A DNA stretch of 25,307 bases, taken from a virus. Location of the stretch: positions 1 through 25,307 of IMG/VR virus record IMGVR_UViG_3300049846_001080. One strand, 5' to 3'. Below the pieces are notes generated by a model. It was not told where the DNA came from. It was given only the letters and a program-made list of their open reading frames with translations, and did not search any database. The translations under genes and the position numbers were made by a program. Below, in pieces: positions 1-25,076 of this stretch; the first letter of the stretch is position 1, and every line of letters starts with the position of its first letter.

Positions 1-2208
1 TGGATCGTCAACAACGGCGCGCTGAGTTTCACGCAGGGAGACGCCACTCCGTTCAATGTCGCGGCGACTCTGCCGGCCGGATACACCGCCGGCGGCGTGT
101 TCGGCGTTGACCCAGCCAACGCCCCGCTGCCAGCCGGCATGACCCTGACCGATGCCGGCAGCCTTGCCGTCGGTAGCGCCGCCCCCGGAACGCAGGCGGG
201 CGTCATGTTCAGCTACCACGAGCCCGGCGCGCTGCCCACGCTGACGCTGCACAGCGCCAGCGCCGGGAGCGGCGTGCCCTACATGGCCACCGTGTACCCG
301 ACCGAGGGCGCGGTTCCGGCCAACATGGTGCTGCTGAGCCCGGACGATCCAACGCTGCGCAGCTCCGTGCTGTCGGCATGGCCGGACGACAGCGCGCAGG
401 TGGTTGTCGTGGCCGGCCATACCGACGTCGCCCTCGGCGGGCAGAAGACCATCCGCCTGCGCCCCGGAAGCTCGAGCGGCGCCGCGCTCACCACGGCCGA
501 CATCGCCAGCAAGTTCACGACCGGCATCGTGTTCACGAACTTCGGCGGCGGCACGCAGACGCTCAATTTGTGGGGCGCGCCGGATCGCATCTGGTGGCAT
601 AACTCGCAAGTGATCTGCGCGCGCTACCGGCAGTCGCTTAACGTCGGAGCAATGGAAGCAGTGATCGACGTACACGCCTTCCAAGGTGGGCGGGCGTTCG
701 TTGAGGTGGTGATCGAGAACGCCAAGTTCAACGCCAACGGCACCAGCCAGCCAGCGCCGACGAGTCAGACGTACACCGGCGCTACTGTCACGGTCAACGG
801 CACCACCATCGCCACGGTGAGCAGCAGCGGCAGCCCGTCGGGTTCGCACCGGGGCGGCATGGCGTGGTACGCCTCCACATGGGTCGGAGGCGATCCTCAG
901 ATCGAGGTCACGCACGACACCGTCTCGATGCAAGCGCACCCGCTGCTGTTCCGCATGGATCAGACCAGCACGGTCGATATGCAGACGACCTACCAGTCCG
1001 ACGCCTACACGCCGTGGGCGATTGGCCGGCAGGGCTACAACGGCATGAGCGTCGCGGGCGACCACGACTGGATCGGCTACCTGCCGAAGTGGGAAGCGCA
1101 CTACCTGCAAACGGGCAGCAAGTTCGCGCGGCGCGCGGTGCTGGCGGCGATGCTGTCTAGTTTGGTGCTCGACATTCACTACCGGCATACCGGGACAGGA
1201 GCGAGCAATAACTGGGTGCCGGACTTCGACCAGCAAAGCGGCAAGAGCTGGGACAACGGTGTGTGGCCGACCGCCACGGCCTACAACGACAGTGGCGGCT
1301 GGGCCGGCTCGCACCACCCGGCCGTCGGCCTCATGGCTTTCCTGTGCCGGCCCAGCCCGTACTTCATCGAGATCGCGCAGCGGGCGGTGCTCAAGACCTA
1401 CTCGTGGAGCACGGGCTTCAACGACGGCGCGGCCAACGGCACGATGGGGCCGTGGTACGCGGTACGGGCGCGGGCTTGGGGCTTCCGCTCCTTTGCCCAT
1501 GCGCTGTTCCTGACGCCGGTCGGCCATCCGTGGCACACGCCGGCTGTGAACTGCCTGGTCCGCAATGTGACGGGGTCGCTGTACTTCCGCGACAACCCGA
1601 AGAGCAAGCTGAACACGCCGTGGGGGGGTGATCCCTACATCTGCTGGGACGACAACGCGGGCGGCACCTTCCAGCACGGGGTGTTCCAGTCGTTCTACTT
1701 CATTCAGGCCACGCACGCGCTGGCCAATGCGAAGGTGCTGACGGGCGCCGATCAGTCCAACGCGGTGGCGCTGGCCGACTGGGCGGCGGGCTTTCCTGTG
1801 CGCTACTGCAACGAATCGCCGGGCGGGGCGTTCCGCTCGATGGCGCAGCGCTTCACGATTGGAGCCACTGGCGCGGCCAACTTCGTCAACGCCGCGATGG
1901 ACCAGTATGCGGACTGGGGCGCGTGGGCAAGCGCGACGATGAGTGGCACCGTGCCGCCCGTTTCAGGACCATGGATCTCCGAGGCGGACACGGCATCCAA
2001 CTGGGGCAACTACGGCACGGACACCACGGCCGGGGCGTGGTACACGAGCTACTACTGGGCGGCCCTGTGCTGCGCGGTGGAGCGCGACATCTCCGGCGCA
2101 ACCGCAGCGTGGGCCAAGGTGACAGGCGGCAACATCACGAACCTCGCCACATGGCGCACGGGCTTTGCGACCGAGCCGCGCTGGGGCTACTACCCGAGGA
2201 ACGCCTGA
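1..2208 (+). CDS. Large phage surface protein, possible glycan-active tail or head fibre (5' end cut by window)
   Basis: The reading frame is open from the first base of the window, so the true start lies upstream; a GTG at 97 is only an internal start candidate. At least 735 residues are present. The beginning resembles a putative-Ig repeat (LPAGMTLTDAG, then GSLAVGSAAPGTQAG). A beta-rich part follows, then a long aromatic and helical region (roughly window residues 350-700) with repeating amphipathic helices, His pairs (SHHPAVGLMAF) and many Trp/Tyr, a pattern common in alpha/alpha-barrel polysaccharide lyases and hydrolases. I cannot name a catalytic residue, so enzymatic activity is inference. 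It heads a block of five surface-type genes and its stop overlaps the next start by one base. It could equally be a pure adhesin. Confidence 0.72.
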   Translation, partial: WIVNNGALSFTQGDATPFNVAATLPAGYTAGGVFGVDPANAPLPAGMTLTDAGSLAVGSAAPGTQAGVMFSYHEPGALPTLTLHSASAGSGVPYMATVYPTEGAVPANMVLLSPDDPTLRSSVLSAWPDDSAQVVVVAGHTDVALGGQKTIRLRPGSSSGAALTTADIASKFTTGIVFTNFGGGTQTLNLWGAPDRIWWHNSQVICARYRQSLNVGAMEAVIDVHAFQGGRAFVEVVIENAKFNANGTSQPAPTSQTYTGATVTVNGTTIATVSSSGSPSGSHRGGMAWYASTWVGGDPQIEVTHDTVSMQAHPLLFRMDQTSTVDMQTTYQSDAYTPWAIGRQGYNGMSVAGDHDWIGYLPKWEAHYLQTGSKFARRAVLAAMLSSLVLDIHYRHTGTGASNNWVPDFDQQSGKSWDNGVWPTATAYNDSGGWAGSHHPAVGLMAFLCRPSPYFIEIAQRAVLKTYSWSTGFNDGAANGTMGPWYAVRARAWGFRSFAHALFLTPVGHPWHTPAVNCLVRNVTGSLYFRDNPKSKLNTPWGGDPYICWDDNAGGTFQHGVFQSFYFIQATHALANAKVLTGADQSNAVALADWAAGFPVRYCNESPGGAFRSMAQRFTIGATGAANFVNAAMDQYADWGAWASATMSGTVPPVSGPWISEADTASNWGNYGTDTTAGAWYTSYYWAALCCAVERDISGATAAWAKVTGGNITNLATWRTGFATEPRWGYYPRNA

Positions 2209-3359
2209 TGCCAGCCGTCGTCTTTCCGCGCCGAGCTACCAGCACCGCCACGACCATCAGTGTCGTTAGCGCCTCGACTGCCCTGTCAGCGGCTGCGGCG
2301 GCGGTGACGAGCAATACGTTTTCCGCATTCTCTGGCGGCGGGTTGTCCACGCGCAGCGCGCATCCGACCAGCGGCTTCCAGTGCGACGTCACCGAAGATG
2401 GATCGCTGTCGCAGGGCCGCACCACGCTCGACTGGGCCGGCAACGGAGTCTATGACCCGACGACCAAGCGCGTGATGTTCTCTGGCAAGGGCATCGGCAA
2501 CAGCAACGGCGACTACATCTACAACACGCAGGCCATCTACAACGAGACGACGGATTCATGGTCGGCGACGCGCGGGTTCCGGGCATCCGATCAAGTCGGG
2601 AGTTCGCGCCCGACCGGGCACCAGTACGATGGCAATGCCCTGTGCCTTATCTCGCGCCGGCACTACAGGAAGCAGTTCACCGATGACAGTGGCTTCGGGT
2701 CTGGTCCGATCCTGCAGTTCAACTTGGACACGAACACGTGGGGGCCAATGATCGCGCCGCCATCGAATGATGACGCATCGCTTGGAAACGGCGCGCTGGA
2801 AAGCGTCGAGGACAAGACTGGAATAGGTGCCGGAGCGTTGTGGTACTTGAGTAGCACGAACTCATCCGGCAGCGCACGAATTTCGGAACTGAACCTCGGA
2901 ACGAACGTCTGGAATCAGGAAAAGATCGCCACCGGTTCGGGTTCGTTCCCCGCGCTGACGGCGGACGGTGGCAATGGCTATGTCATGGCGTTCAATCCAC
3001 GCGCGTTCGGCGGGGCGGGTGGTGTGCTGCTCGGCGGCGGGAACACGAAGTGCTACACGGTGCGGTGCGATACCCTTGCCGTGGCAGCCGTGGCAGATGC
3101 GCCGACCATCATTGACGTGCGCTATGACGGCAAGCTGACGGCAGATCCGAGCGGGTCCGGCTGGCTGCTGTTCGCATCCAACGGTTTCGTCTACCGCTTC
3201 GATGGCTCGACATGGACGCAGCGCGCGGCGCTTCCGGAAAACCTGAGCGGCGGCACGGTGCCGTTCATTGTGGTCCCTATTGACGCGCATGGCGTCGTGT
3301 GGGCGATCCGCGATCAGGCAGCCTCGCCGCGTGCGTGGCTCTACAACCCGAGGGACTAG
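2208..3359 (+). CDS. Kelch-like beta-propeller phage protein
   Basis: The ATG at 2208 shares its A with the TGA of the preceding gene (TGATG), which fixes the start although the frame stays open upstream to 1923. The 383-residue product has a low-complexity Ala/Ser/Thr start (about residues 1-45), then repeated blades with the Kelch-like rhythm of a hydrophobic beta-strand, a Gly pair and a spaced Tyr/Trp: YDPTTKRVMFSGKG, IYNETTDSWSA, FNLDTNTWGP, LNLGTNVWNQ, YRFDGSTWTQ. Such propellers bind glycans or proteins, and in phages they occur in receptor-binding or virion decoration proteins. No enzyme motif was recognised. It is flanked by other surface-type genes and ends one base before the next ATG. 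Confidence 0.75.
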   Translation: MPAVVFPRRATSTATTISVVSASTALSAAAAAVTSNTFSAFSGGGLSTRSAHPTSGFQCDVTEDGSLSQGRTTLDWAGNGVYDPTTKRVMFSGKGIGNSNGDYIYNTQAIYNETTDSWSATRGFRASDQVGSSRPTGHQYDGNALCLISRRHYRKQFTDDSGFGSGPILQFNLDTNTWGPMIAPPSNDDASLGNGALESVEDKTGIGAGALWYLSSTNSSGSARISELNLGTNVWNQEKIATGSGSFPALTADGGNGYVMAFNPRAFGGAGGVLLGGGNTKCYTVRCDTLAVAAVADAPTIIDVRYDGKLTADPSGSGWLLFASNGFVYRFDGSTWTQRAALPENLSGGTVPFIVVPIDAHGVVWAIRDQAASPRAWLYNPRD

Positions 3360-4055
3360 ATGGCGTACAGATCGCACACTACGAAGATTGAGAACGGACT
3401 TAGCACCATTACCATCAACAAGCCGTCCGGCACGGTAGAAGGCGACATTCTTCTGCTGCTGGTGTCGCTCGACCGCACTACAGCGGAAACGATTACTCCG
3501 CCGTCCGGCTTCGCGGCGCTTGCCAGCAGTCCGCTTAATTCGGCGGTGGAGGCTGGCTCGTCCGCATGTTTCTGGAAAAAGGCCGGCGCCAGTGAGCCGG
3601 CCAGCTACGACTGGACGTGCACGTCAAGCGCCAGCACGGCAGGCATCCTCGCCGCTTACTCTGGGCGCGACGGCACGACGCCGATCAACGCATCGTCCGG
3701 CCTTGCTGAAGGCGGCGCGGCGTCGGCGGCGAGTGTCAACGCGACGGGCATCACGCCCTCGGTCGATAACTGCGACATCGTGTACCTTGCGGCGACTGAC
3801 ACGACGGTCAGCGCCACAGTCTCATGGACGCCGCCTTCCGGCATGACGGAGCGGGCGGAAGTCACCACCGCGTCGCCGTGGGTCAATGCAACTCTGGCTG
3901 ATCTTACCCAGGGCACGGCAGCGTCGACCGGCACCGTGACTGGCACGGCAACGTGGACCGGAGGCGGAACGACGGGTCGGATGGCGTTTCTTGTCGCGCT
4001 GGCGCCTGCGGCCGGATCAAGCGCTAAACCGGCGTATTACTTCGCACAACTGTAG
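3360..4055 (+). CDS. Phage structural protein, beta-sandwich type, unknown role
   Basis: The ATG directly follows the TAG of the previous gene. The 231-residue product is almost entirely beta-prone, rich in Ala, Thr, Ser and Gly, with no charged helical regions. The pattern (strand pairs such as GDILLLLVSLDR, a Trp-Lys segment FWKKAGASEP, and SAGILAAYSG-like turns) resembles widespread jelly-roll or galactose-binding-like virion proteins in tailed phages. It ends PAYYFAQL, a compact hydrophobic tail. It lies inside the surface-gene block, and codon usage is slightly more AT-rich than in the downstream tail genes, suggesting a separately acquired cassette. No function can be assigned beyond a likely virion component. 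Confidence 0.65.
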   Translation: MAYRSHTTKIENGLSTITINKPSGTVEGDILLLLVSLDRTTAETITPPSGFAALASSPLNSAVEAGSSACFWKKAGASEPASYDWTCTSSASTAGILAAYSGRDGTTPINASSGLAEGGAASAASVNATGITPSVDNCDIVYLAATDTTVSATVSWTPPSGMTERAEVTTASPWVNATLADLTQGTAASTGTVTGTATWTGGGTTGRMAFLVALAPAAGSSAKPAYYFAQL

Positions 4056-4064
4056 GAGAGCTTC

Positions 4065-4694
4065 ATGGCTGACATTTGGATGGACGTAGACGCGGCACTG
4101 TCCGAAGTGCCAGTCAATATCATGCCTCTGCTGGATGACACCGACTTCAAGACGATCGAAGACGGCCCTATCGCCTACAACGCTGCCGGCATGGATCTGC
4201 GGTGGAACTTCGTGACCACGGCGGGTGCATATACCAGCACTGCCGTCACTCCGACCACTGGCGGCAATTACGACTGGGCGCATAAGGGCGATGGCATGTA
4301 CTGCATCGAGATCCCCGCATCGGGTGGCGCCTCGATCAACAACGACACCGAGGGCTTCGGCTGGTTCACCGGCCGGATCACTGGCGTACTTCCGTGGCGT
4401 GGTCCGGTGATCGGTTTCCGCGCGGCGACGATCAACAACGCTCTGATCGACAGTTCCACCGGCCTCGACCTCATCGCCGATGCGATCCTCGCGCGTGACA
4501 TTGGCTCCGGCTCGGGTGCGGGATCGCTCAACGAGCGGACGGTGCGCAGCGCATTGCGCACGATCCGCAACAAGACGTCGGTCAGCGCCGGCACGCTCAC
4601 CGTCTGCAAGGAAGACGACAGTACGTCGGCCTACACGGCGGCGGTCACGACCAACGCCGCGGCCGATCCGATCGTGAGCATCGACCCGGCCTGA
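4065..4694 (+). CDS. Phage virion-associated protein, BppU-like layout
   Basis: A good Shine-Dalgarno sequence (AGGAGA) lies 6 bases before the ATG. The 209-residue product begins MADIWMDVDAALSEVPVNI and has a beta-rich N-terminal half followed by a helical linker (residues about 133-145, LDLIADAILARDIG). Its C-terminal part (about 155-209) carries the pattern RTVRSALRTIRNK, GTLTVCKEDDST, AADPIVSIDPA. This tail is a recurrent module of phage baseplate or fibre-associated proteins, where an N-terminal domain sets up a beta-domain that presents ligands. Assignment to that group rests on pattern recognition only. It is probably co-translated with its neighbours in the surface block. Confidence 0.68.
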   Translation: MADIWMDVDAALSEVPVNIMPLLDDTDFKTIEDGPIAYNAAGMDLRWNFVTTAGAYTSTAVTPTTGGNYDWAHKGDGMYCIEIPASGGASINNDTEGFGWFTGRITGVLPWRGPVIGFRAATINNALIDSSTGLDLIADAILARDIGSGSGAGSLNERTVRSALRTIRNKTSVSAGTLTVCKEDDSTSAYTAAVTTNAAADPIVSIDPA

Positions 4695-4708
4695 TCGAAA
4701 GGTAAGTC

Positions 4709-6022
4709 ATGGCCGAAGGCTTCCGCGGCCTTTGGCCGTTCCTGTCCACGGATGGCAATGTCCCGCCTGGCAAGGGCGTGGGCAGCGCCTTCGCGGGCGC
4801 CACCGTCAGCGGTGAGGGAACGGTCCAGCAAATTGGCTCGGTGGCCAGCGCCTCGAGCGCCACCGCCGTCAAGGTCGTCGCGGCCGTCTGCTCCGGGTCG
4901 AGTTCGAGTGGCGCGGAGGTCACTGGCACGAAGCCCTCCGCTGCCAATGAGGGCTTCGCAAATTACCGCCCGTGGTTCACCGTCAACGGCATGGGCGGCT
5001 ATGTCGGCTGGGCCGCGGCCGGCGCAACGGTCACAGGCGCGCTGGCGCAGACCATCGTCCGCACCGGCGAGGCAGCCGCCGGAGCCCAGGTCACCGGGCG
5101 CAATGCGTCCATCGGCGGGACGGAGGCGTTCACCGGCTACCGCCCGTGGTTCGGGTTGCAGGGCTCGACCACCCCGGTCCCGGCGGGCGCGTCGTGGTCA
5201 GCCGCCCACGTTACCGGCGACGGCGTTTACAGCATTCTCGGCGACTACGCGACGCCACCGCGCAGCGTGTTCGACGTGCCACCTCCGGCGGACTTCAAGC
5301 CGCCGGGCACGACGCTGGACTACGGCCTGCCGACGTCGCTGCGGCCTGCCGGATCGACCTACGCCGAGCTGCTGTCGACGAGTGCTGCCAGCGGCCAGCC
5401 GCGCGCGGCGTATAGCCTCGACCCCGGCATTGCTGGCGGGGCCTCCGTCAATGGCCAACTGCGCGCGGTCGTCATCACCGAGGGCGCCTCGTCCGGCGGG
5501 GCGCGAGTCACCGGCGCCGCAGTCGGCGTTACCAGCACCGTCGGCACGGGCTCGGCGTTTGCCGCGGCCAGCATCACCGGCCAGGACCGCTCGCTCAGCC
5601 CCGGCGCGGCGCTCGGCACGGCGACTGCCACCAGCAACGCGCAGGCGGCGGGCCTGTCGGAGTTCGCGCTACCGGGCGCCTCCGCGGGCGCTTCTTCGGC
5701 GCAGGCCGTCAATGCCTCCGGCTACCCGCTGGCGGCGCCGGCCGGCAGTTCGTCGGGTGGAGCGGATGTCGCCGGCGAGGCGGTTGCCGCCGTCGTGCGG
5801 AATGCAGAGTCGCAGGCGATGGCCGCCGTGGCTGCCACGCAGGCGACCCTGGCGATTGCCGAGGCGGCAGTGACGAGCCTCGCCTTCGTCAGCGGCAGCG
5901 ATGCCGCCGTGACCACCGTCAAGCCGATGGGCCGCTGGCCCACCGGTCGCAGCAAGCGCACGGCTGACACCGTGCGGCCCGGCACTGGCAACACCCGCCG
6001 GCCCGTGAGCAACTCATCGTAG
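4709..6022 (+). CDS. Repetitive Ala/Gly/Ser-rich phage surface protein
   Basis: The ATG follows a GAAAGG ribosome binding site. The 437-residue product is highly repetitive. A short degenerate unit of the form G-A-S/A-x-G-A-x-V-T-G recurs about eleven times (GATVSG, GAEVTG, GATVTG, GAQVTG, GARVTG, GADVAG and variants). A second motif, E-G/A-F-x-x-Y/L-R/W-P-W/F-F, occurs three times, near residues 3, 81 and 139. The C-terminus is basic (KPMGRWPTGRSKRTADTVRP). There is no catalytic motif, signal peptide or membrane segment. Regular short repeats suggest a fibrous beta-structured spike or head fibre. It ends 6 bases before the head-tail connector gene, so it is encoded between the presumed head genes upstream and the connectors. 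Function unknown. Confidence 0.7.
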   Translation: MAEGFRGLWPFLSTDGNVPPGKGVGSAFAGATVSGEGTVQQIGSVASASSATAVKVVAAVCSGSSSSGAEVTGTKPSAANEGFANYRPWFTVNGMGGYVGWAAAGATVTGALAQTIVRTGEAAAGAQVTGRNASIGGTEAFTGYRPWFGLQGSTTPVPAGASWSAAHVTGDGVYSILGDYATPPRSVFDVPPPADFKPPGTTLDYGLPTSLRPAGSTYAELLSTSAASGQPRAAYSLDPGIAGGASVNGQLRAVVITEGASSGGARVTGAAVGVTSTVGTGSAFAAASITGQDRSLSPGAALGTATATSNAQAAGLSEFALPGASAGASSAQAVNASGYPLAAPAGSSSGGADVAGEAVAAVVRNAESQAMAAVAATQATLAIAEAAVTSLAFVSGSDAAVTTVKPMGRWPTGRSKRTADTVRPGTGNTRRPVSNSS

Positions 6023-7930: not shown

Positions 7931-8581
7931 ATGGCAATCACCCTGTCTACCGGCTCGATCATCGCTATCGCCAGCACGCACGGTAGCTCGAAGACCATGA
8001 GCGCGATCACGAACGCCGCCGAGGCCGTCGCGACCCTCGAAGGCAGCCACGGCATCAGCCAGGGCGACTACTTCGAGGTCACTTCGGGCTGGGACCGGCT
8101 CAACGGCCGGATCGTCCGCGCCAAGAGTGTCAACGTCAACGACGTGACGCTGGAAGGCATCGACACCAGCAACACGACCAAGTACCCGACGGGAACCGGC
8201 ACCGGCAGCGTCCGCGAGATCACCGCCTGGGCGAACCTGTCGCAGATCCAGACGGTCGAACCCGGCGGCGGCGAGCAGCAGTACGTCGACACGACGACGA
8301 TCGTCGACCAGACGCAGAAGCAGATCCCCACGACCCGCGCGCCCGTTACGGTGACGATGACTTTCTTCGACGACGCCACCCTCTCGTGGTATGCGACCGT
8401 GCGGGCAGCGTCCGAGTCGTCGACCGCCACCGGGGTGCGGTACACGTTCCCGAACGGCTCCATCCTCGTCGCGAACGCCTACTGGTCGTTGCAGACGACG
8501 CCGAGCATCGGGTCGAACGCGCCGCTCACGGCGAAGATCGACCTGTCCTACGCCGCCGAGCCGACGCGCTACGCCAGCTGA
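7931..8581 (+). CDS. Major tail tube protein
   Basis: This is the expected tail tube subunit, which stacks in hexameric rings to form the siphovirus tail. A clear ribosome binding site (TTGGAG) precedes the ATG. The 216-residue product is beta-rich, with the features of lambda gpV-like tube proteins: an N-terminal strand, a central WDRLNGRIVRAKSV strand pair, the loop SQIQTVEPGGGEQQYVDTTT, and the conserved turn IPTTRAPVTVTMTFFDD, close to the family pattern with an aromatic pair after paired strands. No C-terminal Ig-like extension is present. It has its own good ribosome binding site after a 76-base gap, as expected for a highly expressed structural gene. Confidence 0.88.
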   Translation: MAITLSTGSIIAIASTHGSSKTMSAITNAAEAVATLEGSHGISQGDYFEVTSGWDRLNGRIVRAKSVNVNDVTLEGIDTSNTTKYPTGTGTGSVREITAWANLSQIQTVEPGGGEQQYVDTTTIVDQTQKQIPTTRAPVTVTMTFFDDATLSWYATVRAASESSTATGVRYTFPNGSILVANAYWSLQTTPSIGSNAPLTAKIDLSYAAEPTRYAS

Positions 8582-8967
8582 TGGAGCTGGCGCAACTCAA
8601 GGCGCGCATCGAAGCCGCGCGCCGCTTTGACCACGAGGTCGGCGGCGTGCGCTTTGCGCTGCAGGTTCCCACCGAGTACGAGATCACTGTCTACTGCGCG
8701 CGGGCGCGGGCGGACGGCGCCACCGATCCCTCGTCCATGATGGTCGAGGCGATGCGGGCCATGCTGCTTTCTGCCGTGCGCGGATGGTCCGGGGTCACGG
8801 TCGACCACTTCCTGCGCGACGGCGATACCGAGCCCGTGGAGTTCGAGCCCGGGCTCGTCGCGCCGCTCTTCGACGCGCAGCCGGACCTCGCGCCGCCGAT
8901 CGTCACGGAGCTGCAGCGGCGTCTGGTGGTCCGCAAGGAACGCACGGAGTCCGCCGCAAAAAACTGA
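8581..8967 (+). CDS. Tail assembly chaperone, short form (gpG-like)
   Basis: The ATG at 8581 shares a base with the tube stop codon. The 128-residue product is mostly helical with a central beta segment (GGVRFALQVPTEYEITVY). It ends in basic and polar residues (RRLVVRKERTESAAKN) just where the frameshift site lies. Its position between the tail tube and tape measure genes, together with the -1 slippery heptamer at its last codons, identifies it as the G-like member of the tail chaperone pair. These proteins coat the tape measure protein during tail assembly and are absent from virions. Sequence similarity to lambda gpG itself is not visible to me; the call rests on synteny and the frameshift architecture. 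Confidence 0.83.
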   Translation: MELAQLKARIEAARRFDHEVGGVRFALQVPTEYEITVYCARARADGATDPSSMMVEAMRAMLLSAVRGWSGVTVDHFLRDGDTEPVEFEPGLVAPLFDAQPDLAPPIVTELQRRLVVRKERTESAAKN

Positions 8968-9212
8968 ACGCGCGCATCGAGTGGGAGAAGTCCCGCGCCG
9001 ATGCGCGCAAGCTCGAAGCCGCCGGCCTGGGCGGCCTCGTGGCCGACCCGCCGCCGCCGGGGCCGGACGAGATCCGCGCGCTGCATTGCTGGGGCTTCCT
9101 CGGCGGCTGGCACCCGGAACGCCTGCCCATGTACGACGCGCTCTACGGCGTCGATGACTTCGACCTGATGATCGAACTGCTGCTGCTGCTGCGCAACGCG
9201 CAGCCGCGTTAG
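8581..9212 (+). CDS. Tail assembly chaperone, -1 frameshift fusion (gpGT-like)
   Basis: Ribosomes that slip back one base at 8958-8964 would leave the gpG-like frame just before its TGA and continue in the overlapping frame to the TAG at 9212. The result is a protein of about 210 residues: 128 from the first frame and 82 from the second. The extension begins LNARIEWEKSRADARKLE (helical). It contains a Pro-rich turn and then HCWGFLGGWHPERLPMYDAL and DDFDLMIELLLLLRNAQPR, a compact acidic and hydrophobic tail. The second frame has no plausible start codon with a ribosome binding site of its own. In lambda the T domain recruits the tail tube while G binds the tape measure; the same division is inferred here. 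Confidence 0.82.
8958..9008 (+). promoter_or_regulatory. Programmed -1 frameshift signal: slippery heptamer plus stimulatory hairpin
   Basis: In the upstream frame the codons read GCA AAA AAC TGA, so 8958-8964 is A AAA AAC, one of the most efficient -1 slippery heptamers in bacteria. Five bases later a perfect 10-bp inverted repeat starts: GCGCGCATCG (8970-8979) with CGATGCGCGC (8999-9008). Inside it, GTGGGA (8981-8986) and TCCCGC (8991-8996) can form a further stem with one G-U pair closing a GAAG loop. The spacer length and stem strength fit a classical stimulatory structure. The zero-frame stop directly after the heptamer adds to the resemblance. Confidence 0.88.
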
Positions 9213-9219
9213 GTGCCCG

Positions 9220-11157
9220 ATGGCCAATCCAAAGATCATATTCACCGGCGTCGATCAGGCCAGCGTCGTCGTCGGCAAGATCGCCGGCACTGTCGACAAG
9301 CTCAAGCTGGCGCTCACCGGCCTCGCCGGGGCGGCGGCCGTGGGTATCTTCAAAGGCATTGTCGACGACCTCGACCGGCTGGAGGAGTCGGCGCAGTCCG
9401 CCGGCGTGGCCGTCGAGTCACTCTCCGCGCTGCGCTACGCGGCCACGTTCGCCGGGGTCGGCGCGGAGAACCTGGACGAGGCGCTCAAGCGCCTCAACGT
9501 CCAGCTCGCCGCCGCCGCGGGCGGTGCCAAGGACGCGCAGGCCGTCTTCCAGGCGCTGGGCATCAAGATCACGAACACGTCGGGGCAAATCCTCAACTCC
9601 GACGAGGCGCTGGCGCAGATCGCCGACAAGTTCGCTTCATTCCGCGACGGGCCAGAGAAGGCGGCGCTCGCCGTGGAGCTCTTCGGCAAGAGCGGCACGA
9701 AGCTCATCCCGTTCCTGAACCAGGGCGCGGACGGCCTGGAGCGGATGAAGGAGGAGGCCGCCAAGCTCGGCGTCATCATCGGCACCGAGGCGGCCACCGC
9801 CGCCAGCCGGTTCGCAGACCAGCTCGACCGCCTCGCCGCCTCCGCCACGGCGGTCAAGGTGTCGATCTTCCTGCCGATCATCGAAGGGCTCTCCAAGGCG
9901 ATCGAGGAATTCAACGCGGCGCGGGGCGCTGCGCTGGGCTTTGGCGAGGCGCTCAAGTTCCTCGCGACCCAAAGCGCCGGCACGCTGCAAGATCCAGGGG
10001 CCAAGATCCGCAGCCTGACTGCGGACATCGAGGCGCTGCAAAAGAAGATCGACGCGCCGATCGGCGCCGCGCCCTACAAGCGCCGGCTCGCCGAGCAGGC
10101 CGATGCGCTGCGCCGGGAACTCGCGTTCCTGAAGGAAATCCAGCGCAATCGGGCGCTCGCCAACGCCGGCACTCCCTATTCGAACGAAGGCCGAACCGCC
10201 GCGGGGGCTGCTCCACGGATCAAGCGTGCCACGGGCGGCGACACCAAGGAAACGATCGACGCCACGCGCGAGGCGCTGGCAAAGTACATCGAGGAACTCG
10301 ACCGCGAACTGCAGAAGCTCGAGGACATCTCCACCGTCGAGAAGGCGCGGCGGCTGCTGGCCGCCAACCCGGCGCTTGACACCGTCCAGGTGCGCGAACT
10401 CCTGGCCACCGAGGAGAAGATGCTCGACCTGCGCCAGCGGGCGGTGGCGGCGCGCAAGGAAGACGCCGACATCGAGGCGCGCATCCTGGCGCAGCAGAAG
10501 AGCCTCGACGAACAGCTCGAAACTTTCGCCGGCCGATCCGCCGATGCGCTCAAGATCGCGCAGACGGCCCGCCTCGAAGCCAGGCTCGCGGCCGGGGAAC
10601 TCTTCAGCGCAGAGGAGCTCGATCGCATCGTCAAGGGCATCGGCGGAATCAGGGACGAGATCCAGAAGACCGACGACGTCGCCAAGGAACTGGGCCTGAC
10701 CTTCGCCTCGTCGCTGGGCCGCTGGATCGAGGCGCCCAGCGAGACAAACTTCTTCAAGGCGCTCGCGCAAGACCTGCAGAAGCTGCTGGTGCAGATGCTG
10801 ATCGTCAAGCCGCTGGCCGAACAGCTCGAGCGGATCTTCAAGGGCTCCGGCGTCGGCGGCACGGGCGCCGGCCTGGCGTCCCTGTTCTCGCTGTTCGGCT
10901 CTCAGAACCTGGTCGGCGTGTTCGCCAGCGGCACCGACTACGTGCCGCGCACCGGCCTAGCGCTGGTGCATCGTGGCGAAGCCATCGTCCCGGCGGGCCA
11001 GAACGGCCGCGGCTGGGGCGGCACGCTGATCGTCAACAACTACATCGACGGCGCCGTCGACCGCGCGCGCATCGCCGGGTACGTGGACCGCGGCGTCCGC
11101 GCCGGCATCGCGCGTTCGGTCGACAACACCGCCCGCGGCGGCAACGGCATCGTATGA
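9220..11157 (+). CDS. Tail tape measure protein
   Basis: The product sets tail length and is ejected with the DNA. At 645 residues it is a fairly short member; at roughly 1.5 angstrom per residue it would correspond to a tail near 95-100 nm (estimate). The N-terminal part has the usual helical and Ala-rich start with a hydrophobic stretch (LTGLAGAAAVGIFKGI). Then come long heptad-rich helices (about residues 240-470, rich in Glu, Lys, Arg, Leu and Ala). The C-terminus has the family's typical GTDYVPRTGLALVHRGEAI segment and a Gly-rich end. A weak ribosome binding site (TTAGGTG) precedes the ATG 7 bases after the chaperone stop. The stop overlaps the next gene by ATGA. Confidence 0.93.
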   Translation: MANPKIIFTGVDQASVVVGKIAGTVDKLKLALTGLAGAAAVGIFKGIVDDLDRLEESAQSAGVAVESLSALRYAATFAGVGAENLDEALKRLNVQLAAAAGGAKDAQAVFQALGIKITNTSGQILNSDEALAQIADKFASFRDGPEKAALAVELFGKSGTKLIPFLNQGADGLERMKEEAAKLGVIIGTEAATAASRFADQLDRLAASATAVKVSIFLPIIEGLSKAIEEFNAARGAALGFGEALKFLATQSAGTLQDPGAKIRSLTADIEALQKKIDAPIGAAPYKRRLAEQADALRRELAFLKEIQRNRALANAGTPYSNEGRTAAGAAPRIKRATGGDTKETIDATREALAKYIEELDRELQKLEDISTVEKARRLLAANPALDTVQVRELLATEEKMLDLRQRAVAARKEDADIEARILAQQKSLDEQLETFAGRSADALKIAQTARLEARLAAGELFSAEELDRIVKGIGGIRDEIQKTDDVAKELGLTFASSLGRWIEAPSETNFFKALAQDLQKLLVQMLIVKPLAEQLERIFKGSGVGGTGAGLASLFSLFGSQNLVGVFASGTDYVPRTGLALVHRGEAIVPAGQNGRGWGGTLIVNNYIDGAVDRARIAGYVDRGVRAGIARSVDNTARGGNGIV

Positions 11158-19131: not shown

Positions 19132-19216
19132 GCCGGGGTGGCGAAAGCGGTAGACGCATCAGATTCAAAATCTGACGGGTAACACCGTGCGGGTTCGAGT
19201 CCCGCTCCCGGCACCA
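19132..19216 (+). tRNA. tRNA-Leu(CAA): tRNA-Leu, anticodon CAA
   Basis: All arms fold. The acceptor stem is GCCGGGG (19132-19138) with TCCCGGC (19206-19212), and the D stem is GCG/CGC. The anticodon stem TCAGA/TCTGA encloses the loop TTCAAAA, with anticodon CAA at 19166-19168, reading UUG. A class II variable arm has CGG/CCG, and the T stem GCGGG/CCCGC encloses TTCGAGT. The discriminator A (19213) and an encoded CCA (19214-19216) complete the 85-base gene. The integrase stop codon on the other strand begins at the next base, so this is the probable integration target or its phage copy. Integrase transcripts running leftward would be antisense to it. Confidence 0.96.
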
Positions 19217-20155
19217 TCATTTTTTCCCAAGCCGCAAGCCGCTCACGGCCTTGACCAGGTGCGGCGCTGCCAGATGAGCATACCGATCCGTCGTGGCCAT
19301 GGCGGCGTGGCCGAGCAGTTCCTTGACGACCTTCATATTCTGCCCGGACTGCACCAGCCAGCTCGCGTAGGTGTGCCGCAGGTCGTGAAAATGCACGTGC
19401 GGCAGGCCCGCAGCCCTGCGGGCGCCCTCGAAGGCGGCGCGGAGGGTATAGACATCGACCTGCCAAGGCAGGCGCTTGCGCGCGATCCTGAGAGCTTCGG
19501 GCGGCAGCGGGACGATGCGCGGGCGGCCTGACTTCGTGCGCGCGTCCAGCAGCAGGGCGCCGTCGCGTAGGTCGCTGGGCTTGAGGCGCAGCAGCTCGGA
19601 GCGGCGCAGCCCCGTGAGGGCGGCAAAGCGCACCAGGTCGCCAACCTCGGCCGGGCAGTGGCGGGCAATGCGCTGCACTTCCGCAGGCGAGAGGTAGACG
19701 TGCCGCTCGTTGCGCTCGGGCAGGAGCTGAATCCTGGGCGCGCGCTCGAGCAGGCCCCATTGCTCGGCCAGGTTGCCGATGCGGCGCAGGACGGAAAGGT
19801 AGCGGTTGATCGTAGCCGGCGCGGCGGTGGCCGTCTTGAGCTGGCCGGCGACGGTGACGAGGTCCGCCAGCGTCTTGCCCGCGGTGAACTCGCGCAGGAC
19901 GTTGACGCGCTGGCGCGTGCGGACGGCGCTTTTCTGGTGCTGGACTTCTTCGGCCAGCCAGCGGTCGAGCGCGTCATCTATGAGCGTGGCGGGCCGGCGA
20001 CCAGCCGCAAGGTCGATCTGCGCGCGGCGGAGCGTATCTTCGAGGGCGCGCGCGTCGGCGCGGGTGGCGCCGGGCGGGAGCGTGCGCTCAATGCGGCGAC
20101 CGCCGCCAATGCGGAGGCGAACCTGCCATCGGTTGCCGACTTGTCGGACGGACAC
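19217..20155 (-). CDS. int: Tyrosine-type site-specific integrase
   Basis: The enzyme cuts and rejoins phage and host attachment sites through a covalent 3'-phosphotyrosine. With the GTG start at 20155 the product has 312 residues. An N-terminal arm-binding and core-binding part (about 1-150) is followed by a complete catalytic domain: Arg184 (TGLRRSE), Lys208 (TKSGRPR), His257 and Arg260 (HDLRHTYAS), His283 (LLGHAAM) and the nucleophile Tyr292 (TTDRYAHL). All expected residues are present, so it should be active. The gene lies downstream of and overlaps the excisionase-like gene. Its 3' end abuts the tRNA-Leu gene exactly, which suggests that recombination occurs in the 3' part of that tRNA. 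Confidence 0.94.
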   Translation of the reverse strand: MSVRQVGNRWQVRLRIGGGRRIERTLPPGATRADARALEDTLRRAQIDLAAGRRPATLIDDALDRWLAEEVQHQKSAVRTRQRVNVLREFTAGKTLADLVTVAGQLKTATAAPATINRYLSVLRRIGNLAEQWGLLERAPRIQLLPERNERHVYLSPAEVQRIARHCPAEVGDLVRFAALTGLRRSELLRLKPSDLRDGALLLDARTKSGRPRIVPLPPEALRIARKRLPWQVDVYTLRAAFEGARRAAGLPHVHFHDLRHTYASWLVQSGQNMKVVKELLGHAAMATTDRYAHLAAPHLVKAVSGLRLGKK

Positions 20156-22535: not shown

Positions 22536-22807
22536 CACCGGCTCCGCCGCAATCTGCGATGCGTCCACATCGCGGAGAGCACGCCCAGCGCGCCGCCGGT
22601 GCCTACCCACGGGACGGCCTGCCATCCCGCCGACACGACCAGCAAAACGGACGCAACCTCGGCGCAGGCGATGGCGTATGGAATCAAGGCCGCCGCCAGA
22701 TAGTTGCCGTGGATGACATTCTGCTGCTGGATAGACCGCAGAAAAACCAGCGCGAACGTCGCGAGCATGAGCATCGGCAATCCGTCGTAGTAGAGGCCGC
22801 GCAGCAT
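22535..22807 (-). CDS. Small membrane protein with three hydrophobic segments
   Basis: The ATG at 22807 shares a base with the methyltransferase stop (TGATG). The 90-residue product has hydrophobic segments at about residues 5-23 (LYYDGLPMLMLATFALVFL), 37-59 (LAAALIPYAIACAEVASVLL) and 63-82 (AVPWVGTGGALGVLSAM), and a basic tail (HRRLRRSR) that should face the cytoplasm. Nothing more specific is recognised. In an early operon such proteins may serve superinfection exclusion, but that is a guess. Confidence 0.7.
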   Translation of the reverse strand: MLRGLYYDGLPMLMLATFALVFLRSIQQQNVIHGNYLAAALIPYAIACAEVASVLLVVSAGWQAVPWVGTGGALGVLSAMWTHRRLRRSR

Positions 22808-23685
22808 CAGGCGGCCTTGGTGTCGAACAACGATGCCGTCGTTGCCAGCGCGTTGGCCAGGTTGCGCGTGGCCTGCTGGTAGTAGCTAGCCTTTAGTTCG
22901 ACGCCGATGAAGCGCCGGTTCATCTGCAGGGCCACGTACCCTTCGCTGCCAATTCCCATGAACGGGCTCAGAACGATGTCGCCCGGATTCGTCCAAAGCA
23001 TGACGCCGCGCCGGATCACGTCGAGCTGCAGCGGGCAGATGTGGCGCTCGTCGTCATGTTCGCGTGCGCTTTGATACTGGAGCGTGTCGCTGGGATTGAT
23101 GTCCATCCATACGGGCGAGGCGACCTTCTGCCAGAGGTCGACGGGGTATTCCTCGCCGTGGGTCACGCGCTCGGATTCGCCCGGCGCCCGCACTGTGATG
23201 AGGTAGTCAGGAATGCCCTGGCGGCACATCGCCGCGTTTTCGCGCACGCTCTTGTGCAGGAGCCCCAGGGCCTTCGTGCGCTGCATGGCCGTCACGGGGT
23301 CTTTCCAGATTGTCGCCTTGCTGTGAAAGATGAATCCGTGCCGCTGAAAAGCACGCAGCAACTCACCCGGGAAGTCATTGAGCCCGATGTAGCCGTCGCG
23401 CTCTTTGCTCGCGGGCATGTCCATGCAGTGGAAGCTGACGTCGCGGCCGGGCTTGATGACGCGCCGCAGCTCAGCGATCAGAAAGTCGAAATGCTCGAAA
23501 AATTCCGCATCATTGCGGACGTTGCCCATGTCGCGCGGGCTGTTGCTGTAGGTGTACAGGCTGGCAAACGGTGGCGAGAAGATCGAATAGCCAACGCTTT
23601 CGGACGGCAGTCCGCGTAACACCTCGACGCAGTCGCCGTGGTAAGCGGCGTAGCGGTCGGTGATGACCTGATCTATGCACTTCAT
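22807..23685 (-). CDS. DNA methyltransferase, N6-adenine/N4-cytosine type, beta class
   Basis: The enzyme transfers a methyl group from S-adenosylmethionine to an amino group of a DNA base. I take the ATG at 23685, which overlaps the helicase stop (ATGA), giving 292 residues; an in-frame ATG at 23700 would add five. Motif IV is SPPF (residues 37-40), preceded by AAYHGDCVEVLRGLPSESVG. The S-adenosylmethionine-binding motif I lies near the C-terminus (DIVLSPFMGIGSEGYVAL, 236-253) and is followed by RRFIGVELKASYY. The order IV then I marks the beta class (PF01555 fold). SPPF resembles the SPPY of N4-cytosine enzymes, but the target base is not certain. No restriction endonuclease gene is adjacent. 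Confidence 0.9.
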   Translation of the reverse strand: MKCIDQVITDRYAAYHGDCVEVLRGLPSESVGYSIFSPPFASLYTYSNSPRDMGNVRNDAEFFEHFDFLIAELRRVIKPGRDVSFHCMDMPASKERDGYIGLNDFPGELLRAFQRHGFIFHSKATIWKDPVTAMQRTKALGLLHKSVRENAAMCRQGIPDYLITVRAPGESERVTHGEEYPVDLWQKVASPVWMDINPSDTLQYQSAREHDDERHICPLQLDVIRRGVMLWTNPGDIVLSPFMGIGSEGYVALQMNRRFIGVELKASYYQQATRNLANALATTASLFDTKAA

Positions 23686-25076
23686 GCAACCCCCAGCCAT
23701 GTCGGTGCGACGACGTGCGCCGCCGCGTTGTAGGTATTGGTCTGCCGCTTCAGGCCGGTGACCTCGGCCATCACGGCGTCGCGGGTTTCGGCGCTCAGGC
23801 TTTCGGCCATGGCGAGCGCGTCCTTTTCTTTCCGCTTCAGGTTCGCCACCACCGCGCCTTCCGCATCCGAAGCAAAGACATGCACGTGCACGTCGCGCTT
23901 CTGCCCAAAGCGCCAGCAGCGGCGCACGGCCTGGTAGTAAGCCTCAAAGCTATCCGTCACTCCGACGAACGCCATACGTGCGCAGTGCTGCCAATTAAGG
24001 CCGAAGCCGGCAATGCTTGGCGTTGTGATAAGCACGCGAATGCGACTGGCAGCGAACTCGGCCAGCCGGCGTTCTTTTGTTTCGATGTCGTCCGAACCGC
24101 GGATCTCGACCGCGCCGGGAATGGCTACCCGGAGCGCATCGCCTTCGGCGTTGAGGTCGCACCACACAACCCATGGCTCGCGGTCGGCGTTGACGATGCT
24201 CGCGCAGTCGGCCACGCGATCGGCCAGCGATGAGCGCCGCGCATCACGACGTTCGCTCAGCGTTTGAGCTTCGCTGGCAAAGAGCATGCCGTTGGTCGGC
24301 ATCTCTGTCTCGACCGTGTGCTCGTGCAGATGCAGCGGAGGCAGCGCGTAGGCTGAATCATCGAATCCTAGATCCGACGGGCGCCGCACCAGGGCGCCCC
24401 ATGAGCACACCCAGCGCCAGAAGATGTGGCGGGCATGGCCCTTTAGCCGCCAGACGGATGTGTCGCCGCCATCGTGCGTGAAAAACTCGGCCAGCATTTC
24501 CTGGCGAGTGCAGATGCCGAGGAACTCCGCATGCGTTCCGAGTTCAGTCCAGTCGTTCGGCGCCGGCGTGGCGGTTGCGCAAAGCTTGAACTGCGTCTGA
24601 TCGAACGCCTCGAGCAGCAGGCGAAGCGTTTTTGAGTCGTGATGTTTGATGCAGCTCGACTCGTCAAGCACGACCGCCCCGAATACCGACGGATCGAACC
24701 GATGCAGTCGTTCGTAATTCGTGATGTAGATTCCGGCGCCGTCAATCGAGTTGCCGTCGCGCACATGGCGCACGTCGATGCCGATTGCCTGCCCTTCGTG
24801 CACCGTTTGCTCGGCTACGGCCAGCGGGGCGAGGATGAGCGCCGGCCGGCGCGTGTACTCCACGGCCGGCGCCGTCCATGCAAGCTGCATGCGGCTCTTT
24901 CCAAGCCCAGTGTCGGCAAATATCGCAGCGCGGCCGCGCCTGCACGCCCACGAAACCAGCGCACGCTGGTGCGGGAATAGTCCGGCCGTCGGGATGTGCA
25001 CGTCCGTCGGCAGCCCCGTCCCTGGCACGGTCGAAAGCTTGCGCTGCACGTACTCGGAATAATCGAGTTGCGTCAC
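23682..25076 (-). CDS. SNF2-like superfamily 2 helicase/ATPase
   Basis: The GTG at 25076 overlaps the stop of the upstream micro-membrane gene (GTGA), with AGGGA further upstream. The 464-residue product has the full set of SF2 motifs. FPHQ is at 34-37, Walker A ADTGLGKS at 54-61, and motif II DESS at 138-141 (a DEAH variant). Motif III is CATATPAPND (166-175). Motif V is TTPSIAGFGLNWQ (351-363), and motif VI is QAVRRCWRFGQKRD (382-395). The N-terminal part lacks extra DNA-binding domains, so it is a compact phage-type SNF2 protein. These translocate on double-stranded DNA and remodel bound proteins. It is translated directly before the methyltransferase, and a joint role in replication, recombination or evasion of host restriction is plausible. 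Confidence 0.9.
   Translation of the reverse strand: MTQLDYSEYVQRKLSTVPGTGLPTDVHIPTAGLFPHQRALVSWACRRGRAAIFADTGLGKSRMQLAWTAPAVEYTRRPALILAPLAVAEQTVHEGQAIGIDVRHVRDGNSIDGAGIYITNYERLHRFDPSVFGAVVLDESSCIKHHDSKTLRLLLEAFDQTQFKLCATATPAPNDWTELGTHAEFLGICTRQEMLAEFFTHDGGDTSVWRLKGHARHIFWRWVCSWGALVRRPSDLGFDDSAYALPPLHLHEHTVETEMPTNGMLFASEAQTLSERRDARRSSLADRVADCASIVNADREPWVVWCDLNAEGDALRVAIPGAVEIRGSDDIETKERRLAEFAASRIRVLITTPSIAGFGLNWQHCARMAFVGVTDSFEAYYQAVRRCWRFGQKRDVHVHVFASDAEGAVVANLKRKEKDALAMAESLSAETRDAVMAEVTGLKRQTNTYNAAAHVVAPTWLGVA

Follow-up and report, generated by a model that had tools for sequence, protein, structure and literature searches.

How is the reading frame behind the stop codon of a tail gene translated in the virus record IMGVR_UViG_3300049846_001080? 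The record was analysed over its whole length of 25,307 bases (hereafter the window), with positions counted from its first letter. The gene in question, G, encodes a putative tail assembly chaperone and ends on the zero-frame codons GCA AAA AAC TGA, while a second open reading frame (ORF), T, continues past this stop in the -1 frame. An earlier sequence-only reading of the window had proposed a -1 frameshift site in this chaperone gene, and the conservation of the site in relatives, the protein domain in the -1 frame and the covariation of a downstream stem all agree with that proposal. The site is very probably a programmed -1 ribosomal frameshift signal of the lambda G/GT type (PMC5009743, citing Xu, Hendrix and Duda 2004).

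Anatomy and conservation of the slippery site

The heptamer A AAA AAC stands immediately before the TGA stop of G. The stop itself belongs to the 5-nt spacer (TGAAC, 8965-8969) that leads to the outer stem, the arms of which, GCGCGCATCG and CGATGCGCGC, form 10 base pairs with 100% complementarity and enclose a predicted inner stem. In all these elements (heptamer, spacer, perfect outer stem and inner stem) the sequence-only reading was correct to the base, and RNA folding bears it out: the segment 8965-9012 folds with -31.8 kcal/mol, a z score of -6.1 against dinucleotide shuffles, none of which (0/200) was as good. The structure begins 5 nt past the heptamer, inside the range of 5-8 nt given for stimulators (PMC4066793). 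On its own the heptamer counts for little, since 0.54 copies of AAAAAAC are expected per window by chance.

It is the position at the stop, confined to this one gene, that takes the site beyond chance. Relatives were collected as 36 metagenomic virus loci via tail-tube homologues and as further loci via a search with the T alignment; a scan of bacterial genome contigs yielded a single relative, in a Pseudogulbenkiania metagenome-assembled genome. The loci gathered up to that point comprise, on both strands, 1476 distinct ends of stop-to-stop ORFs of at least 100 codons. In 32 of these the stop directly follows a slippery heptamer, and all 32 are the G gene; 31 of them read AAAAAAC or GGGAAAC followed by the stop. 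Every metagenomic locus with a readable G end has a slippery heptamer there or close by, followed by a long ORF in the -1 frame. The stop is not always adjacent. It lies at +72 in L036, +66 in L066 and +9 in L040, the AAAAAAG sites of L034 (+21) and L059 (+24) have a distant stop, and sites with a run of A in L008, the L012 group and L021 have it 3 nt on. Within this tail-tube lineage, X XXA AAC runs straight into the zero-frame stop in nearly every case, unlike the A AAA AAG and A AAA AAA sites seen, a pattern that is uncorrected for relatedness. Isolated phages show the same arrangement: GGGAAAC or AAAAAAC is found at the G end in all eight isolates first examined and in 10 of 12 further ones, and in 17 of these 18 it stands directly at the stop, the exception being PseuP_222 (L045, +6).

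Upstream of the heptamer, where an SD-like stimulator would sit at a distance of 6-17 nt, lies a Shine-Dalgarno (SD)-like motif that occurs in 14 of the 18 loci of the clade, against roughly 4 expected. As a candidate stimulator it is suggestive only: the enrichment is confounded by the conserved Glu-Ala that it encodes, and the motif is absent from the closest relative, L004. An Rfam scan of the window gave tRNA as its sole match.

Selection on the hairpin and on the -1 frame

Covariation was assessed in 12 loci, the region of which could be aligned without gaps. The register of the outer stem is kept across them, with 90.8% of the cells paired and with double compensatory changes. The score for the whole structure is 0.402 as compared to 0.197 for shuffled alignments, none of which (0/500) reaches it, and it stays at or below 0.123 if the pairing partner is shifted along. 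Without a given structure, RNAalifold predicts 8 of the 10 outer pairs, and in 4 of these both partners have changed. GC/CG pairs give way to AT/TA pairs at columns 17/47 and 18/46, for example. In a phylogeny of tube, G and T, two pairs show one double change each, common to one sub-clade, while columns 19/45 and 22/42 have changed repeatedly, with the changes spread over the tree. The number of independent covariation events is moderate, because some double changes are common to one sub-clade. Conservation of the inner stem is not supported in these relatives (59.7% of the cells paired).

The sequence-only reading had also suggested that the loop pairs downstream to form a pseudoknot. This is rejected for the window, where the pairing of the real downstream sequence is equalled in a fraction of 0.93 of its shuffles. 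In L005, L007, L028, L032 and L051 such a pairing is borderline relative to shuffles (fractions 0.06-0.11), and in L007, L028 and L032 loop bases of the GCCGGCC type could pair with a downstream stretch of the GGCCGGC type.

Could the hairpin be a mere by-product of GC-rich coding sequence, with no role of its own? Inverted repeats are common in GC-rich DNA, and 16 are listed in the window. However, when synonymous codons are shuffled with the T protein held fixed, the shuffles average -13.9 kcal/mol, and the window hairpin with its -31.8 kcal/mol is far stronger (z -4.75, p 0.002). The same test gives p<0.05 in 11 of 18 clade loci, while control stretches further along T show no such effect (mean z -0.6). 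The paired changes on both arms, moreover, maintain the stem across relatives. A role-less hairpin is thus very improbable, and by these comparisons the outer stem is under selection and is no by-product of coding or GC content, since it is stronger than synonymous shuffles allow and the control stretches lack the effect.

Two further alternatives concern the way in which T is made. T could be expressed separately, by reinitiation or from an internal start past the G stop, so that no fusion is needed, and the GenBank entries of several isolates do list the two ORFs as distinct genes. Against this stands the T protein itself. From the junction onward, the T domain of the window aligns with those of 10 relatives, which are 37-50% identical to it (alignment A1), the residues KL at positions 2-3 being invariant or nearly so, whereas the first ATG, GTG or TTG of the -1 frame past the junction is, in the window, a GTG well inside T. 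The family phrog_17368 spans the G (1-107) and the T (108-209) of the isolate relatives as one protein, and in the window the -1 frame is open across the junction up to its stop just ahead of the tape-measure ORF. Judged from this alignment, the -1 frame is coding and conserved as protein. Separate expression also leaves the conservation of the heptamer unexplained, and it appears exceedingly improbable. Transcriptional slippage on the A run, in which messengers with an altered number of A residues encode the fusion, has an equally slight chance of being the explanation. Polymerase slippage is plausible in L012-L019 and L038, where more A residues stand in a row at the site, but the run in the window has six A, below the >7 A named for transcriptional realignment (PMC3711429). 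Furthermore, many relatives use GGGAAAC and have no long A run, and a conserved hairpin at ribosomal spacing would be unneeded for slippage of the polymerase. In the sister group formed by L012-L019 and L038 (about 338 nt past the tube stop) the longer run replaces A6C and the zero-frame stop lies 3 nt after the heptamer; there, transcriptional slippage could contribute.

Several points weigh against a ribosomal frameshift of the lambda type. The heptamer A_AAA_AAC has a low efficiency in E. coli (PMC4066793), although the host of this phage may not be E. coli. By sequence, G matches chaperone families only weakly, and T has no family match in PHROGs and NCBIfam searches. Finally, homologues that keep both frames and lack the heptamer, which the sequence-only reading had named as a refutation, are absent among the recovered relatives with a window-type T domain, but farther away 2 of the 12 further, distant isolates have no XXXYYYZ heptamer at the G end. 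These two, Klebsiella phage pK8 (L077, Webervirus) and Klebsiella phage K34PH164 (L078), have an AAAAG run near the G end, which is perhaps a slip site of the tetramer type.

What happens in the cell, including how often ribosomes slip and what G and GT do, we infer from the programmed ribosomal frameshift signal as follows. The majority of ribosomes would terminate at the TGA and release G as a chaperone of 128 amino acids. While Lys-tRNA occupies AAA, Asn-tRNA occupies AAC and the hairpin holds the ribosome, a minority would slip back one base, bypass the stop and produce a G-T fusion with a predicted length of 210 amino acids. By analogy to lambda, G may cover the tape measure protein, and T may recruit the tail tube subunit. 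It could also be imagined, in keeping with the nearly constant adjacency of X XXA AAC and the stop in this lineage, that termination at the adjoining stop is slow and allows the hairpin-held Asn and Lys tRNAs a second chance to slip. Such a stop-assisted mode is unlikely; if it were true, the kinetics of release factors would help to set the G:GT ratio.

The sequence-only reading had called the heptamer top-efficiency and, with every part of a strong recoding site visible, had suggested that this ratio may be unusually high. The literature contradicts the first point: mammalian ribosomes slip on A_AAA_AAC about as well as on any heptamer, but in E. coli it is reported to work poorly and XXXAAAG to work best (PMC4066793, PMC5009743). 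Nothing suggests an unusual ratio here. The strong hairpin may compensate for the weak heptamer, and the combination may give an ordinary ratio.

Identity of G and T and likeness to known systems

The features of the locus are collected in Table 1. The stop of the tail tube gene overlaps the start of G (TGATG), and the gene order is tube, G, T in the -1 frame and tape measure.

Table 1. Features at and around the frameshift site of the window
Feature	Position	Strand	Evidence or remark
Major tail tube protein gene (Phage_tail_3)	7931..8581	+	Pfam PF08813 E 1.5e-49; phrog_584 E 2.9e-65
Gene G, zero-frame putative tail assembly chaperone, 128 aa	8581..8967	+	ORF; weak phrog_313 match; AF2 model
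SD-like GGAG	8946..8949	+	9 nt upstream of heptamer
Slippery heptamer A AAA AAC	8958..8964	+	Read from sequence
T domain, -1 frame	8964..9212	+	82 aa after slip; stop 9210-9212
Zero-frame stop TGA	8965..8967	+	Abuts heptamer directly; belongs to 5-nt spacer
Outer stem 5' arm GCGCGCATCG	8970..8979	+	Fold, inverted-repeat listing, covariation
Inner stem	8981..8996 (pairs 8981-8986/8991-8996, 6 bp, 4-nt loop)	+	Predicted fold
Outer stem 3' arm CGATGCGCGC	8999..9008	+	Fold, inverted-repeat listing, covariation
Tape measure protein gene	9220..11157	+	phrog_13338 E 5.6e-48; phrog_8462 tape measure E 1.7e-40

The assignment of G draws on a weak match to phrog_313 ('Tail assembly chaperone'; E 0.015 in the window and 2e-4 in a relative) and on structure prediction. 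The AlphaFold2 (AF2) model of G has a predicted local distance difference test score (pLDDT) of 94. In a BFVD search with this model the top match is the chaperone of phage Loki (prob 1.00, E 1.1e-3), and other chaperones are among the top matches. Re-aligned to solved structures, the model gives Z values of 6.4 for 3fgx, 5.7 for the HK97 tail assembly chaperone 2ob9 and 5.3 for 5ir0, as compared to at most 3.3 for unrelated rows. There is therefore moderate support, from the model, for a tail assembly chaperone fold in G, the Z values being middling. A Pfam scan of G and T gave nothing relevant, Foldseek and VIA searches with T gave nothing informative, the profile of G had no significant match to that of Medea1 G, and tblastn of the window G and T against the isolates returned no match.

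The locus is reminiscent of lambda in several aspects: it lies between the tail tube and tape measure genes, the -1 shift occurs near the end of G, T is in the -1 frame and a minor fusion product is expected. In contrast, lambda slips on G GGA AAG, while the window would use A AAA AAC at the stop together with a strong hairpin. No clear sequence relation of the window G and T to those of lambda emerged from the searches made. There is also a likeness to bacterial dnaX, which combines a heptamer with a downstream hairpin and, as the window possibly does, an upstream SD-like motif. Two aspects of dnaX differ from the window: it uses A AAA AAG (PMC5009743), and its shift leads to a shorter product (PMC4066793).

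The placement of the heptamer has closer parallels. In Acinetobacter phage Loki, the source of the best fold match, AAAAAAC is adjacent to the stop in gp12/gp13, as in the window; Loki belongs to another phage lineage, and the available portion of PMC5313236 describes no hairpin or covariation. Burkholderia phage KL1 has GGGAAAC immediately before TGA in gp18/gp19 and a predicted downstream stem-loop (PMC3483164), and the Caulobacter phages phiCbK and Colossus have heptamers of the type found here, AAAAAAC and GGGAAAC, respectively (PMC3556154). As far as the available portions of these two papers go, the three are single-genome predictions without covariation tests. Escherichia phage LL5 (Tlsvirus, MH491968), a relative, carries AAAAAAC TAA at the G end, and its tapemeasure chaperone frameshift product is annotated as a joined coding sequence; it differs from the window in having another T subtype and a weaker downstream fold (-18.0 kcal/mol for 60 nt).

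The mechanism is ordinary and the arrangement is established from lambda, Loki, KL1, phiCbK and Colossus; a heptamer right at the stop has been described for Loki and KL1, and the product is annotated in LL5. New is a subfamily of tail-chaperone frameshift sites that is seen, by the searches made, only in metagenomic virus contigs. New too are the covariation evidence for selection on the stimulatory hairpin, which goes beyond a single fold, and the association, throughout the family, of weak XXXAAAC heptamers with a stop directly behind them. The view of A AAA AAC as an efficient bacterial slip site is corrected. There is also a consequence for annotation: isolate records other than LL5 hold two separate or hypothetical genes, or part of the pair only, and in several public phage records T is separate, hypothetical or unannotated where a frameshift fusion is expected.

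Other features of the window

The record probably derives from a temperate phage that had a tRNA gene as its integration site, because a phage integrase gene (19217-20155) directly adjoins, on the opposite strand, a tRNA-Leu(caa) at 19132-19216. Upstream of the head-tail connector gene, positions 1-6022 contain five large ORFs, three of which were scanned in Pfam and gave no match; the ORF at 4709-6022, without a PHROGs match, has repeated Gly/Ala/Ser-rich motifs of the VTG type. On the minus strand, at 22807-25076, a DNA methylase (PF01555) lies beside a helicase gene of the SNF2/DEAD type.
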